This document shows, in pieces, positions 108 to 36,415 of a DNA stretch of 63,476 nucleotides. Numbering within the stretch: the stretch's first letter is position 1; each line of letters starts with the position of its first letter. The notes under the pieces are model-generated. The model was given only the letters and a program-made list of their open reading frames with translations. It was not told where the DNA came from and did no database searches. The stretch is from the NCBI GenBank assembly GCA_002839095.1, contig PGXL01000011.1, forward strand, positions 1 through 63,476. The letters run 5' to 3'. The stretch comes from Tenericutes bacterium HGW-Tenericutes-2. Its GTDB lineage: Bacteria > Bacillota_I > Bacilli_A > Acholeplasmatales > Acholeplasmataceae. Both the position numbers and the translations under genes were made by a program.

Positions 108-1367
108 CTATTCCTTTTCGTTTTCATTTTCTAACTCTCTAACTTCAATATTAACCTCTAATACTTTTTTTGTATCAGCACCAGTAATCGTTACTGTTAA
201 ATTTTTATAATTAAATACTTCTCCAATACTTGGGATTTTACCTAACTCGTCCTGAGCCCAACCATTAACAGTTGAAAACTCTAGCTCTTCATCAATTCCA
301 AGTTCTTCAAAGACATCTTCTAAATCTGCATAGCCTTTTACACGATAATTCTTTTCATCAATTTTGATCATCTGCTCAATAATTTCATCATGTTCATCCC
401 ATATATCGCCAACAATTTCTTCTAAAATATCCTCCATCGTGACTATACCTAAGGTTCCACCAAATTCATCCTTTACAATTGCCATATGTGACTTATATTC
501 CTGAAGAAGCTCTAATAAATTTGATACCTTCATGTATTCAGTTACAAATACTGGTGGCTTTATAATAGTATCAAGTGCTTGTTTCTCTAATAAGACTCGA
601 TTATAGAAGTCCTTATGATTAATGATCCCTATGATATGATCGATATTGGTGTCATATACAGGTAATCTTGAATATCCTGAGTGTCTAAAAGCATGGGTAA
701 TTTTCTTTAAATCGTCATTTTCTGATATCGCTACGACATTGACTCTTGGTGTGAAAATCTCTTCAACCTTTAAATCATCAAAGTCAATCACACTACGAAT
801 TAAATCTCCCTCATTCTCATTGATTCCACCTTCTTGTTGAACCTCTGAAACATAGGTTAATAGCTCATCCTCTGTTGTTGGTGCTTCCTTTTGAAATTTG
901 AAAAGTCTATTCATTAGCTTTTGCCATAAAGAGAAAATAATATTGAGCGGTGTTAATAAAAACATAAACATCATAAGTATTGGTGTAACTGCTAAAGCGA
1001 AGGTTTCGGGTATTCTTTTTGCCATACTCTTTGGTGTGATTTCACCAAATATAAGAACGAGGGTTGTCATTACTGCCGTTGATATGGTTACTCCAGCATT
1101 CCCCCAATAACGCACAAAAATCACTGTTGCAAGTGATGCAGCACCGATATTGACAATATTGTTTCCTATTAATATAGTTGTTAGTACTCTATCAAAGTTT
1201 TCTGATAAATTTAATGTTCTTTTCGCTCCGTGATGACCATTTTGAGCAAGATGCTTAATCTTGATCTGATTGAGTGACGAAAAAGCAGTTTCAGTTGCGG
1301 AAAAAAACGAGGAAAAAAGTATTAATATTGCAAGTACTACGATCTGCCATATAACTTCATTATCCAT
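108..1367 (-). CDS. CNNM/CorC (HlyC)-type Mg2+ transport protein, distal copy
   Basis: A 419-residue membrane protein of the DUF21-CBS family, the bacterial relatives of CNNM magnesium transporters (CorC, MpfA). The N-terminal DUF21 domain (about 1-180) has four hydrophobic segments, including FSSFFSATETAFSSL and FGEITPKSMAKR. A CBS pair follows at about 200-325 (SGYSRLPVYD, VKDEFGGTLGIVTMEDILEE), then a CorC_HlyC domain to the end. Such proteins are linked to Mg2+ export in Staphylococcus (MpfA) and to divalent-cation resistance elsewhere; direction of transport here is inferred. It lies 11 bases after a second copy of the family, so the two are co-transcribed and may form a heterodimer. The older label hemolysin is misleading. 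Confidence 0.9.
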   Translation of the reverse strand: MDNEVIWQIVVLAILILFSSFFSATETAFSSLNQIKIKHLAQNGHHGAKRTLNLSENFDRVLTTILIGNNIVNIGAASLATVIFVRYWGNAGVTISTAVMTTLVLIFGEITPKSMAKRIPETFALAVTPILMMFMFLLTPLNIIFSLWQKLMNRLFKFQKEAPTTEDELLTYVSEVQQEGGINENEGDLIRSVIDFDDLKVEEIFTPRVNVVAISENDDLKKITHAFRHSGYSRLPVYDTNIDHIIGIINHKDFYNRVLLEKQALDTIIKPPVFVTEYMKVSNLLELLQEYKSHMAIVKDEFGGTLGIVTMEDILEEIVGDIWDEHDEIIEQMIKIDEKNYRVKGYADLEDVFEELGIDEELEFSTVNGWAQDELGKIPSIGEVFNYKNLTVTITGADTKKVLEVNIEVRELENENEKE

Positions 1368-1378
1368 AATAATTCACA

Positions 1379-2683
1379 TTACTCCTCAATATAACTCTCT
1401 TCAATCAATGGTTTCGTTACCTTAACTTTAGATATAATTTTATCCTCAGTTTTCAGCACTTCAAACTTAAATCCATTGTATTGAATTACAACTTCTTCAT
1501 TTTCTAATGGAAAACGACCAAGCTGTCCTAGGATAAACCCACTCAATGTATCATAATCATCAACAGGTAAATCCGCTTCTATAACATCTTCAACGTCATT
1601 GATGGATATTAATCCATCGACCTCATAAACACGATCACTAACTTGCTTGATTGAATCTTCGTCTTCATCATATTCATCAAATATGTTTCCAACGATTTCT
1701 TCAATTAAGTCTTCAATGGTAACTATACCTGCTGTTCCACCGTATTCATCTAATACAACAGCGATATGATTTTTTTGTTTTTGCATTTCCTTGAAAAGAT
1801 CACTTGTCTTTTTAGATTCAGGAATAAAGTATGGTGGTCTTAACAAAGCCTTCATTGAGAATTTTTCTTCACTATTATCTATATATTTTAATAAGTCCTT
1901 CACATGCAATGTACCAATGATATGGTCAATTGAATTCTCATATACGGGGAATCTTGTGTATTGCTCAGTCCTAACATATTCTAAAATCTGAGCTTTTGTG
2001 GCTTTCACTGATAATGCTGATATTTCCGTGCGATGGGTCATGATTTCATCAACTGTTGTATCAGAGAAATCGAAAATGTTTTGAATCATTTCGCCTTCTT
2101 CTTCATCAATATTTCCAGTTTTACTACTTTCTTCCACGATTGAACGAATTTCTTCCTCAGTAACCCTGCGATCACCTTCACTAGGCTTTAAGCCAACAAA
2201 TCTTCCGACTAGGCTTGAAAGTTGAGTTAGAATCCATAAAACAGGTGCCATTATTCTTGTTAAACCAGTTACAAAGCCTATGGTTCCATAAGCGATTTGA
2301 TTTGGATATTTATTTGCTAGTCGTTTTGGTATCATTTGACCTATAACGACATGGAATACAAGTAATATTAATGCGATGATTGTAATGACAAGTGGTTCTA
2401 CGATAGGATTTGGTGAATTAAACCATTGAACAACATCATTACTAAAAGTATCTAATGCAATCGCACCATTAATAAGTGCAATTAATGTCACAAGCATTTG
2501 AATAGTTGACAAATATTTTTTAGGTTCTTCAGTAAAATTCTGAACCTTGTATGCTTTCTTATTTCCCTTTTCAGCATCTAAATTGACCTTGTTATCACTA
2601 ATAACAACGAGTGCAACTTCGCTTGCTGCTAAAATAGCAGATAAAAAGATTAGAAATAACATGACTAAACTTGAAGCTAACAT
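1379..2683 (-). CDS. CNNM/CorC (HlyC)-type Mg2+ transport protein, proximal copy
   Basis: A 434-residue paralogue of the next gene with the same order: DUF21 membrane domain (about 1-190, with AASEVALVVISDNK and GQMIPKRLANKYP), CBS pair (about 210-335, with YTRFPVYENS and LDEYGGTAGIVTIEDLIEE) and CorC_HlyC domain (about 350-425). The ATG at 2683 has a GTGAGGG ribosome site. This ATG overlaps the stop of a 47-codon leader ORF (ATGTTAG), so translation may be coupled. It is the first large gene of a two-gene operon behind a strong promoter and an in-leader terminator, so cation-responsive attenuation is likely. The substrate is probably Mg2+, judged from the family only. Confidence 0.9.
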   Translation of the reverse strand: MLASSLVMLFLIFLSAILAASEVALVVISDNKVNLDAEKGNKKAYKVQNFTEEPKKYLSTIQMLVTLIALINGAIALDTFSNDVVQWFNSPNPIVEPLVITIIALILLVFHVVIGQMIPKRLANKYPNQIAYGTIGFVTGLTRIMAPVLWILTQLSSLVGRFVGLKPSEGDRRVTEEEIRSIVEESSKTGNIDEEEGEMIQNIFDFSDTTVDEIMTHRTEISALSVKATKAQILEYVRTEQYTRFPVYENSIDHIIGTLHVKDLLKYIDNSEEKFSMKALLRPPYFIPESKKTSDLFKEMQKQKNHIAVVLDEYGGTAGIVTIEDLIEEIVGNIFDEYDEDEDSIKQVSDRVYEVDGLISINDVEDVIEADLPVDDYDTLSGFILGQLGRFPLENEEVVIQYNGFKFEVLKTEDKIISKVKVTKPLIEESYIEE

Positions 2684-2820
2684 GTTAATCCCTCACTTTC
2701 ATAACAAAAAAAGACACCAAAAAAAGCATCGTGCTTGATATCTTTGAATTCCGGATATGTTGGATCGTCGATCCTACTACTGCATTCTTCCATTTTTACT
2801 TTTAAGTCCTCCATCACCAT
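2677..2820 (-). CDS. Possible 47-codon leader peptide of the CNNM operon
   Basis: An open frame runs from an ATG at 2820 (alternatives at 2814 and 2793) through the intrinsic terminator to a TAG that overlaps the start codon of the proximal CNNM gene. The peptide is acidic and holds prolines in its middle (IDDPTYPEFKD) and aromatics near its end (AFFGVFFCYES). A GGAGG lies 14 bases before the 2793 ATG; the 2820 ATG would lie only about five bases from the predicted transcript start. The unbroken frame through a terminator and the exact overlap with the next start are the evidence for translation. The frame could be chance, since it is only 47 codons long. I know of no named homologue. Confidence 0.4.
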   Translation of the reverse strand: MVMEDLKVKMEECSSRIDDPTYPEFKDIKHDAFFGVFFCYESEGLTC

Positions 2821-2826
2821 GTGATA
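2684..2826 (-). promoter_or_regulatory. Unidentified attenuated leader RNA of the CNNM operon
   Basis: From the predicted transcript start near 2826, the leader carries a 5' hairpin (ATCAC/GTGAT), a perfect GGATC-GAC-GATCC hairpin at about 2762-2774, and an intrinsic terminator before the first large gene. It does not match the M-box, yybP-ykoY or fluoride riboswitch consensus as I know them. Regulation may act through translation of the included ORF or through an unknown small aptamer of about 75 bases. Confidence 0.55.
2706..2742 (-). terminator. Attenuator hairpin in the CNNM leader
   Basis: On the minus strand GATATC pairs with GGTGTC (two G-U pairs), enclosing AAGCA-CGA-TGCTT with a five-T bulge, followed by TTTTTTT. 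It lies between the promoter and the first gene, so transcription must read through it to express the CNNM pair. Confidence 0.7.
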
Positions 2827-2831
2827 TAAAT

Positions 2832-2860
2832 ATCATACTCTTTTTATAGTCAAAAGTCAA
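2832..2860 (-). promoter_or_regulatory. Promoter of the CNNM operon
   Basis: Minus-strand TTGACT (2860-2855), 17-base spacer, TATGAT (2837-2832). This is a near-consensus sigma-A type promoter that places the transcript start at about 2826. Confidence 0.75.
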
Positions 2861-2940: not shown

Positions 2941-3056
2941 ATGAAGGGGAGTAGTTAGCCCTAAATTAATCGTCAGTACGGCGTAATGCCCGGTTAATTT
3001 CAAGATTATCTTGTAACGAGACCTTCAAGACTTTTTTGTCTTGAGGGTTTTTATTA
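2941..3056 (+). promoter_or_regulatory. yybP-ykoY (Mn2+) riboswitch with terminator
   Basis: The conserved blocks appear in order: GGGGAGTAG at the 5' side, TCAGTACG and GCCCGGT in the middle, and ACGAGACCTTC at the 3' side. The 5' GAAGG can pair with 3' CCTTC to close P1. The same CCTTC is the 5' arm of a following terminator (CCTTCAAGAC with GTCTTGAGGG, then TTTTT at 3047-3052), so metal-bound P1 would prevent termination. In this class Mn2+ binding turns expression on. The downstream gene is a cation/Ca2+ exchanger-type protein, which fits metal export. Confidence 0.9.
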
Positions 3057-3108: not shown

Positions 3109-4104
3109 ATGCAAATTTTTCTACATGCTTTAGTTTTAGTTACTGGGTTTGTTTTCCTTATTAAAGGAGCCGATTTCTTCATTGTTTCATCGAGTTCGAT
3201 TGCGAGAAAGTTTAATGTTTCACCCCTAATCATTGGTTTGACCTTAGTAGCTTTTGGTACAAGTCTTCCTGAACTAGGTGTGAGCTTTGCTGCTGCATTA
3301 TCAGCTCGGGCTCAAGGAACAACAGCTGATATCGCGATGGGTAATGTTATTGGATCCAATATCGCAAATATTACATTGATTTTAGGATTTAGTGCAGTTG
3401 TGATGCCTTTAGCTGTGAAAAGAACAATGTTTAAGCAAGAATTCCCTTTCTTGATTGTAATAACAATCTTAATTTCAGTCTTAGCATTTTTCTTCCAATC
3501 GGATGCTATAATTGTATGGTGGGAAGCTTTAATTTTATTAATGTTTTTCGCTTATTATATGTATTTAATGCTAAGAAGTCATAAGGAATCAAATCATGTC
3601 GAAGAAATCAAAGTAATTGATATGAAAAAGGCGATTACATTTCTTATAATTGGCTTAGCTGGTGTATCATTAGGTGGTTATATGGTTACATATGGTGCAG
3701 AGTATTTATCTGTTCAGTTGCTTGAAAATGTCTTTGGAATGGAAAGAACAAGAGCGATAACCTTAGTCGGACTTAGTGTTGTTGCGTTAGGAACTTCTCT
3801 TCCTGAGCTTGTGACTTCAGTCATGGCATCCAAAAAGGGTGAAAATGAAATTGCGATTGGTAATGTCTTAGGATCAAATGTGTTCAACACATTATGGATT
3901 GTTGGGCTTGCCGGTTTAGTTACACCACTGAGAATGAATCAAGATGTTTTGATTGATACTGTCATTTTGATTGGTATTACATTACTTATGATCTTATTCG
4001 CATTCACTAAAAAATCTATTTCTAAGGGTGAAGGCTGGATACTCGCATTGATTTACTTTGCATATATTGCATATATTATCATTAGAGCATTAGGACTTAT
4101 TTAA
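3109..4104 (+). CDS. Na+/Ca2+ exchanger-family cation antiporter (YrbG/CaxA type)
   Basis: A 331-residue polytopic protein with the two inverted repeats of the Ca2+/cation antiporter family. Each alpha repeat carries its signature: FGTSLPELGVSF plus GNVIGSNIANI in the first half, LGTSLPELVTSV plus GNVLGSNVFNT in the second. The paired acidic residues (Glu of SLPE) are the usual ion ligands. About ten hydrophobic segments span the chain. An AAAGGATG ribosome site precedes the ATG. The Mn2+ riboswitch upstream suggests that the physiological substrate could include Mn2+, moved out of the cell in exchange for Na+ or H+; the family itself is best known for Ca2+. Monocistronic, ended by a terminator. 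Confidence 0.88.
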   Translation: MQIFLHALVLVTGFVFLIKGADFFIVSSSSIARKFNVSPLIIGLTLVAFGTSLPELGVSFAAALSARAQGTTADIAMGNVIGSNIANITLILGFSAVVMPLAVKRTMFKQEFPFLIVITILISVLAFFFQSDAIIVWWEALILLMFFAYYMYLMLRSHKESNHVEEIKVIDMKKAITFLIIGLAGVSLGGYMVTYGAEYLSVQLLENVFGMERTRAITLVGLSVVALGTSLPELVTSVMASKKGENEIAIGNVLGSNVFNTLWIVGLAGLVTPLRMNQDVLIDTVILIGITLLMILFAFTKKSISKGEGWILALIYFAYIAYIIIRALGLI

Positions 4105-4846: not shown

Positions 4847-5194
4847 TAGTTATGCCAATGTGCATAAGCCATGTTCTGTTCCCTTATAAAGGGTGTGACC
4901 ATTTATCTCTACATAGTAGCATACTTGAGCTTTAATTCGCTCTTGTACGTGCCCCTACCAAATTTGGGTTGCTAGCTTGAGGGGTTTACCGCGTTTCATC
5001 TTTCCATTTCTAGAAAGCTCGTTTCTGTGGCACGTTTTGTCCTAGATCATAGTTTCCTTTAGACCATCAGACGCCGTTACGATCTCTCGTACCCTAGGTT
5101 ATTTTTTCCCTAGGCACAAACACTACATCCATCTCAGAATGTGCTAGCATGGACTTTCCTAACCTATAAATAGGCTCGGTCACCTTCCATTGAC
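4847..5194 (-). ncRNA. rnpB: RNase P RNA, catalytic subunit
   Basis: About 348 bases on the minus strand. Hallmarks are GGTTAGGAAAGTCCATGCT near the 5' end (the conserved GGAAAGTCC block) and ACAGAACATGGCTTA near the 3' end, with the paired helices between them. This ribozyme cleaves the 5' leader from precursor tRNAs with the RnpA protein. Layout and length fit the Firmicute (type B) class, but I did not fold it. The exact ends are inferred from the promoter and terminator. Confidence 0.93.
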
Positions 5195-5234: not shown

Positions 5235-5858
5235 TTAGCGATTTGTATCCGTAGTTAAATCAACAATCTGTTGAGCCTCCAAAGCATCCTCAAGTTCTTC
5301 AGTAGCTGTTTTTTCTTCTTCCTCAGCAACTACATGAACTTCTTTCATGATGACAACGATTTGATTTGGATCATTTTTTATTGTTATTCCTTTGGGAACT
5401 TTAAGATCTTTAACCTTAATATCATCGCCAAGTTCAAGCTTTGATACATCAATATCAAATGAGGAAACCCCAGATCCTGGAATATACTCTGCAGTAATTT
5501 CTGATAATGCAAGTTCTGCATATAATGTCTTATTAAAAAATGCTTCCTTGCCTAATAATTCCACCGGGATTTGTGTAGTCATCGTTTCCTTCGGTGTTAC
5601 TCTATGTAAATCAAAATGAATGATTTCATGTGGATTTAAAATGTTTGATTGAATATTCTTAATATACACATGATGGTATTTTCCATCCACTCTAACCTTA
5701 AAGGTTTTATTCTTTCCATAGGTTTTAATCGCCTCTAAAACCTCACTTTTTTCTGCTTGAACTGATGTGGACTCTATGGATTTTCCATACATCACACCAG
5801 GTACTAAATTCTCTTTTCTAATATCATTTAATTTTTCTGTTCTAAGTTCTAATTTCAT
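5235..5858 (-). CDS. rplY: Ribosomal protein L25/general stress protein CTC, copy 1
   Basis: A 207-residue two-domain bL25 protein of the long (TL5/CTC) form. The N-terminal 5S rRNA-binding beta-barrel spans about 1-90 (VPGVMYGKS, HFDLHRVTP), and the C-terminal CTC beta domain about 95-180 (PVELLGKEAF, GDDIKVKDL). A charged glutamate-rich tail follows. It binds 5S rRNA at the central protuberance of the 50S subunit. It has its own promoter. A second copy lies immediately upstream, sharing VPGVMYGK, HFDLHRV and LLGKEAF but clearly diverged. The common partner gene pth is not adjacent. Confidence 0.9.
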   Translation of the reverse strand: MKLELRTEKLNDIRKENLVPGVMYGKSIESTSVQAEKSEVLEAIKTYGKNKTFKVRVDGKYHHVYIKNIQSNILNPHEIIHFDLHRVTPKETMTTQIPVELLGKEAFFNKTLYAELALSEITAEYIPGSGVSSFDIDVSKLELGDDIKVKDLKVPKGITIKNDPNQIVVIMKEVHVVAEEEEKTATEELEDALEAQQIVDLTTDTNR

Positions 5859-5996: not shown

Positions 5997-6620
5997 TTAT
6001 GCCTTAGCTCTTTTTTGTGCTACAGTTTCTACCACTTTTTCATCAATAACTGATGCTACAACCGGTTTAACAACCACTGGTTCTTCTTCAGCTACGATAT
6101 GTTCTTTCACGTGAGCAATCACTTGATCCATATCTTCTAAAATGACGATACCATGACCTAGGTTTAAATCCCTTACATGAATAGAATCTCCAATTTTTAA
6201 ATTGGATACATCAACTTCAATCTTTGATAAACCTTGTCCAGGTGCGAACTCGACATCAAGCATATCTAGTTCCTGTAAAAGTAAATAGGATTGTCCATGG
6301 AAAGCTTCCTTACCGAGCAATTGAATTGGAATAGTTGTCTTAAACATATCCTTTTCAGAAACTCTATGCAAGTCGAAATGTAGAATTGTTTCAGGTAGTA
6401 AGATTCTTCCTTGAGTATATTTGATATAGACATCATGTGTTACTCCATCCAGTTCAGCCTTGAAGGTCATACTCTTGCCATATTTCTTCAATGCTTCCTT
6501 GAATTCTTTTTCATCAACTTGTACATTGACAGGTGAGATCCCCTTCCCATACATAACTCCAGGCACTTGACGTGCCTCTCTAACCAATCTTAAAGATTCG
6601 GTTCTTATTTGTAGTTTCAT
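5997..6620 (-). CDS. Ribosomal protein L25/general stress protein CTC, copy 2
   Basis: A 207-residue bL25 of the same two-domain form and the same length as its neighbour. The 5S-binding domain is at about 1-90 (VPGVMYGKGIS, HFDLHRVSE) and the CTC domain at about 95-180 (IQLLGKEAFHGQS, GDSIHVRDL). The tail is basic-acidic and ends in QKRAKA. The two copies appear to share well under half of their residues by eye, so the duplication is old or one copy was acquired. Either could be the housekeeping ribosomal protein and the other a stress form. Independent promoter and terminator. Confidence 0.9.
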   Translation of the reverse strand: MKLQIRTESLRLVREARQVPGVMYGKGISPVNVQVDEKEFKEALKKYGKSMTFKAELDGVTHDVYIKYTQGRILLPETILHFDLHRVSEKDMFKTTIPIQLLGKEAFHGQSYLLLQELDMLDVEFAPGQGLSKIEVDVSNLKIGDSIHVRDLNLGHGIVILEDMDQVIAHVKEHIVAEEEPVVVKPVVASVIDEKVVETVAQKRAKA

Positions 6621-11482: not shown

Positions 11483-11519
11483 TTAATCACCATACTTATT
11501 ATACTAAAAAATAGGCAAT

Positions 11520-11541
11520 AAAAAAAGCACTTGCGTGCTTT
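11520..11541 (-). terminator. trxA terminator
   Basis: Minus-strand AAGCAC-gcaa-GTGCTT hairpin followed by seven T, immediately after the trxA stop. Confidence 0.85.
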
Positions 11542-11543
11542 AA

Positions 11544-11852
11544 TTATTTGAATTGGTTCATCCAAGCTGCTACTCTTTCTTTTGGTTGGTAACCACTTTG
11601 ACGGTCAACTTCTTCTCCATCTTTGTATAATACAACAGTTGGAACACTACGAATCCCTGCTTCAATAGCTTGATTTCTAAATAAATCAATGTCTACACGC
11701 CAAAATTTCACATCTGCCATGTCTGTGCTAATTGATTCTAACACTGGTTTAAGCATCTTACATGGTCCACACCATGTTGCGAAATATTGTACAACCACTA
11801 AACCTTGGTGTCCAACGACTTCTTGGTAATCCTGTCCTTGATAATCAATCAT
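11544..11852 (-). CDS. trxA: Thioredoxin
   Basis: A 102-residue classical thioredoxin with the redox site WCGPCK at about 28-33, the cis-proline strand SVPTVVLYKDG at about 75, and a normal length. It reduces protein disulfides in the cytosol, and should receive electrons from a thioredoxin reductase. The only reductase in the window is the unusual fusion at 27166-28422. Monocistronic, with its own near-consensus promoter and terminator. Confidence 0.96.
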   Translation of the reverse strand: MIDYQGQDYQEVVGHQGLVVVQYFATWCGPCKMLKPVLESISTDMADVKFWRVDIDLFRNQAIEAGIRSVPTVVLYKDGEEVDRQSGYQPKERVAAWMNQFK

Positions 11853-36212: not shown

Positions 36213-36351
36213 AAAAATAAAAAATTTCTATGGATGACCAAAGAAATTGCTAGTATGTATGATTTACATCTAACTATCCCTCCGCTGGTACGATCCAGAT
36301 CAGGTTCTCGGGTCGACTTTCGTCCTCTCAGCACATGGCTCCCCGTAGTGA
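36213..36351 (-). promoter_or_regulatory. TPP riboswitch with terminator
   Basis: Minus-strand aptamer at about 36351-36262 shows GGGGAGCC, CTGAGAGGACG, GACCCGAGAACCTGATCTGG and ACCAGCGGAGGGAT in order. The expression platform is a terminator, AATTTCT pairing with AGAAATT then TTTT-A-TTTTT (36248-36213), just before the thiT ribosome site. TPP should switch the gene off by termination. A TTGATA-17-TATTCT promoter candidate lies upstream at about 36361-36389. Confidence 0.95.
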
Positions 36352-36415
36352 TCATTAATAGAATACTATAAATATATCAATATATCAATTCATATGAAAA
36401 AAAGGTGGAAATAAA

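Follow-up and report, generated by a model that had tools for sequence, protein, structure and literature searches.

We propose that a short leader open reading frame (2677..2793, minus strand, 38 codons, MEECSSRIDDPTYPEFKDIKHDAFFGVFFCYESEGLTC), situated ahead of a gene for a CNNM-type membrane protein, is a leader-peptide transcription attenuator combined with translational coupling, and that its output is gated by survival of the ribosome in early elongation. We give this reading as a whole a probability of about 0.5. Comparison of 51 leaders from 16 genera of Acholeplasmatales brings out the ORF, its frame, a peptide start marked by acidic residues, an NGG arginine codon and DDP, a terminator, and the overlap of the leader stop with the CNNM start. 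Recurrence of the peptide in all these genera, with frame and stop overlap kept, is far from what chance would produce. It is very probable that the leader ORF is translated and functional, and there is good reason to believe that it controls CNNM by attenuation, by coupling or by both. All coordinates refer to the window, the whole analysed stretch of 63,476 nucleotides of contig PGXL01000011.1 from Tenericutes bacterium HGW-Tenericutes-2.

The leader locus and its surroundings

All parts of the locus lie on the minus strand. The gene behind the leader (1379..2683) encodes a 434-aa product in which a CNNM domain, a CBS pair and a CorC_HlyC domain (PF01595, PF00571 and PF03471) score above the Pfam cut-offs, which places it in the CNNM family. 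The equivalog cut-offs of NCBIfam are not reached for PaeA (228 of 500 bits), PRK11573 (196 of 475) and CorC (175 of 379). Because the protein stays below the cut-offs for PaeA, CorB and CorC, we treat Mg2+ export only as its presumed function; MpfA is an Mg2+ exporter (PMC5122736). A second CNNM gene (108..1367, 419 aa, PF01595) follows downstream after an 11-nt gap and probably shares an operon with the first.

The promoter predicted ahead of CNNM corresponds to a promoter-like sequence at 2832..2860, with a -35 element TTGACT (2860-2855), a 17-nt spacer and a -10 element TATGAT (2837-2832), scoring 10/12 in a consensus scan. Nearly all relatives conserve it as TTGAC-N16/17-TAT.AT, and the distance from -10 to the ATG is mostly 37-39 nt. 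At the 5´ end of the mRNA, directly 5´ of the Shine-Dalgarno sequence, there is a small hairpin ATCAC-ATG-GTGAT (2813..2825), and comparable pairing is found in many relatives, not in all. The Shine-Dalgarno sequence of the leader ORF, GGAGG (2808..2812), is separated from the ATG by 14 nt, which is unusually long. This spacing amounts to 12-16 nt in 44 of the 49 leaders that bear a Shine-Dalgarno sequence; genes of the window that show one mostly have 5-10 nt.

The sequence-only reading described a 47-codon ORF running through the terminator. The ORF indeed does so and closes with the TAG of ATGTTAG, overlapping the start of CNNM, but the start at ATG 2820 did not hold. This ATG comes too soon, about 5 nt after the point where transcription should begin, lacks a Shine-Dalgarno sequence and is not shared by relatives, and we rejected it. 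The conserved start, identified from an alignment of 30 leaders, is ATG 2793; frame, start and stop overlap are kept in the 51 leaders. Within the ORF, codon 7 is the rare arginine codon AGG (2773..2775), codons 8-11 encode IDDP (2761..2772), and the 3´ end contains GAGGG (2690..2694), the Shine-Dalgarno sequence of CNNM.

The window harbors several other elements. Divergently from the CNNM leader, a riboswitch-like leader (2941-3055, plus strand) precedes a Na+/Ca2+ exchanger gene (3109-4104). It consists of GAAGGGGAGTAGTT..CGTCARTACGG..CCCGG..TAACGAGACCTTC with stems, followed by a terminator that competes with a CCTTC arm. At 21 loci in many genera its loops are nearly invariant and its stems vary; the source genome has a single copy. 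It resembles the yybP-ykoY Mn2+ riboswitch, but the RF00080 model gave no match to the element, which could be a diverged yybP-ykoY member or a new class. Further, RNase P RNA of class B is located at 4860-5191 (minus strand), near the CNNM operon also in relatives, and a TPP riboswitch at 36260-36355 (minus strand). Two adjacent ORFs of 207 aa (5235-5858 and 5997-6620, minus strand) have similar N-termini, judged by eye to be L25/Ctc-like, and apparently represent a tandem duplication.

Conservation of the peptide start in Acholeplasmatales

The source genome comprises 2.3 Mb and its closest named relatives are Acholeplasmataceae, which are bacteria without a cell wall. CNNM orthologues were found by protein search of 60 relatives, and DNA search revealed the leader, 76-92% identical within the genus and less so across the family. 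Of 160 genomes searched in the order, 42 contain it according to a sequence profile (E < 1e-5), each with a single strong match. Reading the sequence immediately 5´ of CNNM orthologues added more divergent leaders and brought the total to 51. The genomes are mostly metagenome assemblies, and genus codes such as g3 or g21 are labels internal to our analysis; among the carriers of the leader is Peloplasma aerotolerans (L065/L008), a species available in culture. Examples from outside the genus are MEVSQRIDDPTYPE.., MEDNSCGQRTIDEPGEDKSLC, MEDSSSGQRTISEDPDLLEVTL, MDDTSSGQRTIEEPLDWRTI, MEDSHTSNKEEPGPKRSN.. and MEDFPSYRCAKKYMFQQGNVIW.

Profile search at class level beyond the order yielded no true leader match. 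The matches obtained there, together with weak ones in family f3, do not lie near CNNM and we regard them as chance; the same applies to a second profile match in the window (11507-11581, minus strand), which corresponds to the end of a thioredoxin-like gene and its terminator. The source genome contains one other GGAGG-N-ATGGARGA site. No leader peptide was found in the plasmids searched, and in Blautia and further distant lineages CNNM is not preceded by a comparable overlapping acidic uORF. In genus g21 of the sister family f5, CNNM starts directly with MELPL.. and has no uORF; there (L146, L147, L148, L153 and L154) the DNA at the beginning of the gene itself, ATGGAACTNCCGCTGATAAT (MELPLII), hardly varies. 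A search of Rfam with the whole window and with the leader (gathering score or E up to 1) matched the leader to no family, be it M-box, T-box or others, and we found no earlier description of it in the open-access literature searched.

Several observations argue for translation of the leader ORF, which is open in 51/51 leaders. Among the 31 leaders of constant length, stops occur in 0/31 in frame 0, in 10/31 in frame 1 and in 31/31 in frame 2. The dN/dS-like ratio for codons 2-11 is 0.30 in frame, as opposed to 1.33 and 0.80 in the other two frames. The distance from the ATG to the conserved arginine varies among lineages solely by multiples of three (15, 18, 21, 24 and 27 nt). The leader stop is positioned -4 to +22 nt from the CNNM start in 29/30 leaders (L024 instead overlaps an upstream ATG), although single distances may be off because tblastn alignments had to be extended to reach the CNNM start.

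Three elements make up the conserved signal of the peptide: M-[ED]-[DE], [DE][DE]P and an NGG arginine codon. Residue 2 is acidic in 50/51 leaders and residues 2 and 3 both in 45/51. In 42/51 leaders the first 16 residues include [DE][DE]P; the motif is absent from the leaders of g3, g14, g24 and g7. The acidic-proline patch IDDPTYPE, to which the sequence-only reading drew attention, thus survives in part: DDP is deeply kept, the remainder of the patch is not, and the exact EPDP motif of MgtL is absent from the leader. The early arginine stands in a short N-terminal stretch S-x-R-[IT] and is encoded by AGG in 45 leaders, CGG in one and AGA in two, with no arginine in three, which makes NGG 46/48. 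With window genes and CNNM genes as the reference for codon usage, AGG accounts for 4.5% and CGG for 0.9% of arginine codons in the window (5.4% together), and NGG for 4.8% in 30 CNNM genes.

The same region forms an early RNA hairpin GGAUC-GAC-GAUCC (2762..2774), possibly a pause hairpin for RNA polymerase. All five pairs are present, in the form GGAUC-GAM-GAUCC, in 30/31 constant-length leaders (the genus and nearby genera), and the synonymous sites of codons 7-10 are nearly fixed in these 31. Part of the conservation is therefore at the level of RNA and not of peptide. The hairpin is lost in several more distant genera. Of those that lack it and have the arginine, 6/8 use AGG, for which constraint on hairpin RNA cannot be the reason; the nominal probability of such a count is 7e-7 to 2e-4 (background 5.5-15%), assuming independence of lineages, which is only roughly true.

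A terminator-like hairpin within the leader ORF

An intrinsic-terminator-like hairpin occupies 2706..2745, inside the leader ORF. Its outer stem pairs 2745-2737 with 2718-2710, an alternative inner stem pairs 2730-2726 with 2717-2713, and the T7 tail spans 2712-2706. The terminator claimed previously is weak when judged from the single sequence but gains backing from comparison (hairpin 2745-2710 and T7). The single-sequence fold of the whole leader is uninformative (z = 0.11), the local fold of the hairpin reaches -10.2 kcal/mol vs -5.8 for shuffles (p = 0.03), and a terminator scan did not list it. Roughly 41/51 leaders have such a hairpin inside the ORF, and it is weak in several members of the set. 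The 3´ arm GTC followed by T7 is invariant in 31/31 constant-length leaders. Its 5´ partner is the outer AAAGAY in most of them, an inner GACGC stem in L008, L010 and L126, and other partners in L024 and L029. When one leader per lineage is folded and only the 5´ part is shuffled, real sequences beat shuffles with Stouffer z ~ -3.8, the lineages not being independent.

Aligning the leaders of relatives had been proposed as a way to recognize RNA kept over a broken frame. In the N-terminal part, frame and residues are kept, an outcome that speaks for the sequence-only reading. The C-terminal part is the reverse: selection there acts on the RNA and not on the amino-acid sequence, since the frame shifts in L011 and L026 while T tracts stay, and codons 23-30 undergo more nonsynonymous than synonymous change. 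In nine leaders T tracts are missing altogether, yet the start of the peptide persists in all nine and the overlap in most. Since the terminator was lost there and the peptide start stayed, we suggest that the peptide start is older or more essential and that the terminator is an added output.

Pausing of RNA polymerase might contribute as well. A first T7 tract (2719..2725), located in the loop of the terminator hairpin, is a T run conserved in the 31 constant-length leaders and fits the NusG pause motif TTNTTT. NusG of the source genome carries VVRNTPRVTGFLG, i.e. VVRNTP with the NT pair of pause-promoting NusG, which we take to match the positions of N81 and T82 in B. subtilis. A review names the NT pair of pause-promoting NusG as N81 T82 (PMC12288461). 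An antiterminator (2:3) stem of the trp type, sought by eye in the conserved parts, was not found.

A model of ribosome-gated attenuation and its alternatives

In our model, RNA polymerase would start near 2825 and a ribosome would initiate the leader ORF at 2793 from the poorly spaced Shine-Dalgarno sequence. The run of M-acidic-acidic, NGG arginine codon and acidic-acidic-Pro would then make it likely that the ribosome drops off early. In that case the hairpin would form behind RNA polymerase, transcription would end before CNNM, and the overlapping CNNM start would receive no ribosome. If it survives, it would melt the hairpin, transcription would go on, and the ribosome would finish on the start codon of CNNM. 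The early hairpin and the T7 tract may hold RNA polymerase, as the ribosome has to catch up within ~120 nt. High Mg2+, perhaps polyamine too, would stabilize the ribosome and turn the exporter ON; low Mg2+ would turn it OFF. Of these steps, we infer that the ribosome drops off or reads through, that RNA polymerase pauses, and that Mg2+ is the signal. Two aspects of the leader guide us. Firstly, poor Shine-Dalgarno spacing, ME[DE], NGG and [DE][DE]P are each conserved, which suggests that the leader is built to shed ribosomes at an early stage. Secondly, the terminator lies in the latter half of the ORF and CNNM starts where the ORF ends, so that losing the ribosome should mean OFF and completion ON. 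Such polarity would be sensible for an exporter of Mg2+, like MpfA, or of polyamines, like PaeA. We somewhat favor early drop-off as the regulated step. Mg2+ as the main signal is a tentative assignment, short of even odds, which fits a CNNM exporter and the precedents of MgtL, MgtQ and CorC; the signal may also be Mg2+ plus polyamine.

Early acidic residues with proline make E. coli ribosomes unstable, an effect that is clearest when Mg2+ is low; the precedent is drop-off at EPDP of MgtL, described along with EttA. Simple di-acidic motifs are often insufficient in E. coli for this intrinsic ribosome destabilization (IRD), which counts against drop-off here (PMC11282234). Early NGG codons lead to peptidyl-tRNA drop-off, which is reported for E. 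coli within an early codon window only (PMC12204400). In our leaders NGG stands at codon 6-10. Drop-off at NGG in E. coli is strongest at the first few codons, and the later position counts against this contribution. On the export side, the N-terminus of CorC itself contains an IRD stretch and the gene is believed to be up when Mg2+ is high, and mgpA, a gene of Mg2+ stress, has the overlapping leader YoaL (PMC12421838). The leader MgtQ relies on Asp2/Glu5 (PMC8092293).

The likeness to MgtL, the leader of mgtA in E. coli and Salmonella, consists in a short leader ORF, early acidic and proline residues and a gene of Mg2+ homeostasis. MgtL differs in having EPDP and a Rho-dependent terminator, and there low Mg2+ turns an importer ON. 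As the terminator here is of intrinsic type and placed inside the ORF, the polarity should be opposite, and we predict that the leader resembles MgtL in its sensor and not in its output. MgtQ of mgtC-mgtB in Salmonella likewise has acidic residues in its leader (Asp2/Glu5) and controls an Mg2+ transporter through abortion of translation, but it works via accessibility of the RBS and abortion raises expression. CorC (YbeX) and the YoaL leader of MgpA (YoaE), from Salmonella and E. coli, come closer in direction: these export-side Mg2+ genes depend on early elongation or an overlapping leader and are expected OFF at low Mg2+, as proposed here. In CorC, however, IRD resides in the protein itself, for YoaL the signal is not known, and the accessible text of the source describes an intrinsic terminator in the ORF for neither (PMC12421838).

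The simplest rival is a plain translation-coupling device without any specific signal, which would tie CNNM to general translation capacity and to a ribosome trailing RNA polymerase. It agrees with the overlap of leader stop and CNNM start, found almost throughout, and with the missing terminator in nine leaders, and the accessible text of PMC4824070 reports suppression of a terminator near translated sequence. Because it leaves unexplained why M[ED][DE], the NGG arginine and [DE][DE]P persist in a peptide that otherwise varies, we consider it unlikely. Regulated slow decoding of the rare AGG, as in regulatory-codon attenuators, would make the leader a sensor of arginine or of charged tRNA. 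NGG in 46/48 leaders, including lineages without the early hairpin, speaks for this, and so does the role of arginine as polyamine precursor, given that the CNNM protein scores relatively well with the model of the polyamine exporter PaeA. Still, there is a single arginine codon and no run, AGA takes its place in two lineages, arginine is missing in one genus, the acidic residues are left without explanation and CNNM is no amino-acid gene. The leader also departs from trp and his attenuators, having one arginine codon and a short serine run in place of a run of end-product codons, ahead of a gene that is not biosynthetic. This reading is distinctly doubtful.

An arrest peptide, whose N-terminus would stall the ribosome on polyamine, metal or another ligand without drop-off, seems to us even less probable. 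Conservation confined to the short N-terminal motif with S-x-R-[IT], as well as the relation to PaeA, would suit it, but a motif confined to the first 11 residues is too short to extend deep into the exit tunnel, and stalling at this point, like drop-off, would allow the terminator to form. The leaders tlrB and vmlR of Bacillus subtilis, which also join a leader ORF, an intrinsic terminator and a NusG-dependent pause, differ in that stalling is induced by antibiotic and gives ON.

In the pyrBI attenuator of E. coli, a leader ORF runs through an intrinsic terminator, a U-rich stretch causes a pause, and a trailing ribosome prevents termination. Our leader ORF spans its terminator in the same manner, and pausing set by UTP or NusG at the U-rich stretch might decide whether the ribosome catches up; the first T7 tract, conserved though outside the stem, and the pause-type NusG point the same way. 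Yet pyrBI senses UTP via RNA polymerase, serves pyrimidine genes and has no conserved acidic peptide start, whereas the genes here are not pyrimidine genes, leaders without U tracts keep the peptide, and the acidic/NGG start would have no explanation, so we find sensing of RNA polymerase speed quite improbable. An RNA-only element, either a riboswitch or a protein-binding attenuator with an incidental ORF, could claim the nearly fixed synonymous sites of codons 7-10 and their hairpin, but the kept frame, indels of 3n, lineages with peptide and no terminator, absence of an Rfam match and loss of the hairpin in several genera leave it hardly credible.

Returning to ribosome-gated attenuation, we tentatively regard the leader as a nascent-chain sensor of Mg2+, or of cations in general, that forms a family of its own in a Gram-positive lineage, whose start of acidic-acidic, NGG arginine and acidic-acidic-Pro would make early loss of the ribosome the thing measured, and whose intrinsic terminator inverts the MgtL logic for an exporter, though we hold this to be rather less than an even bet. 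Ribosome-destabilizing leader peptides are known mainly from enterobacteria. At least 51 leaders in 16 genera represent a natural mutational experiment, in which the terminator is kept or lost and the rare codon and poor spacing are kept, and they permit a precise test of a Mg2+ or polyamine readout through early drop-off with output inverted for an exporter. If our assumptions are true, then ribosome stability as a gauge of Mg2+ arose independently in Mollicutes, and a synonymous rare NGG codon is held by selection as a drop-off element.
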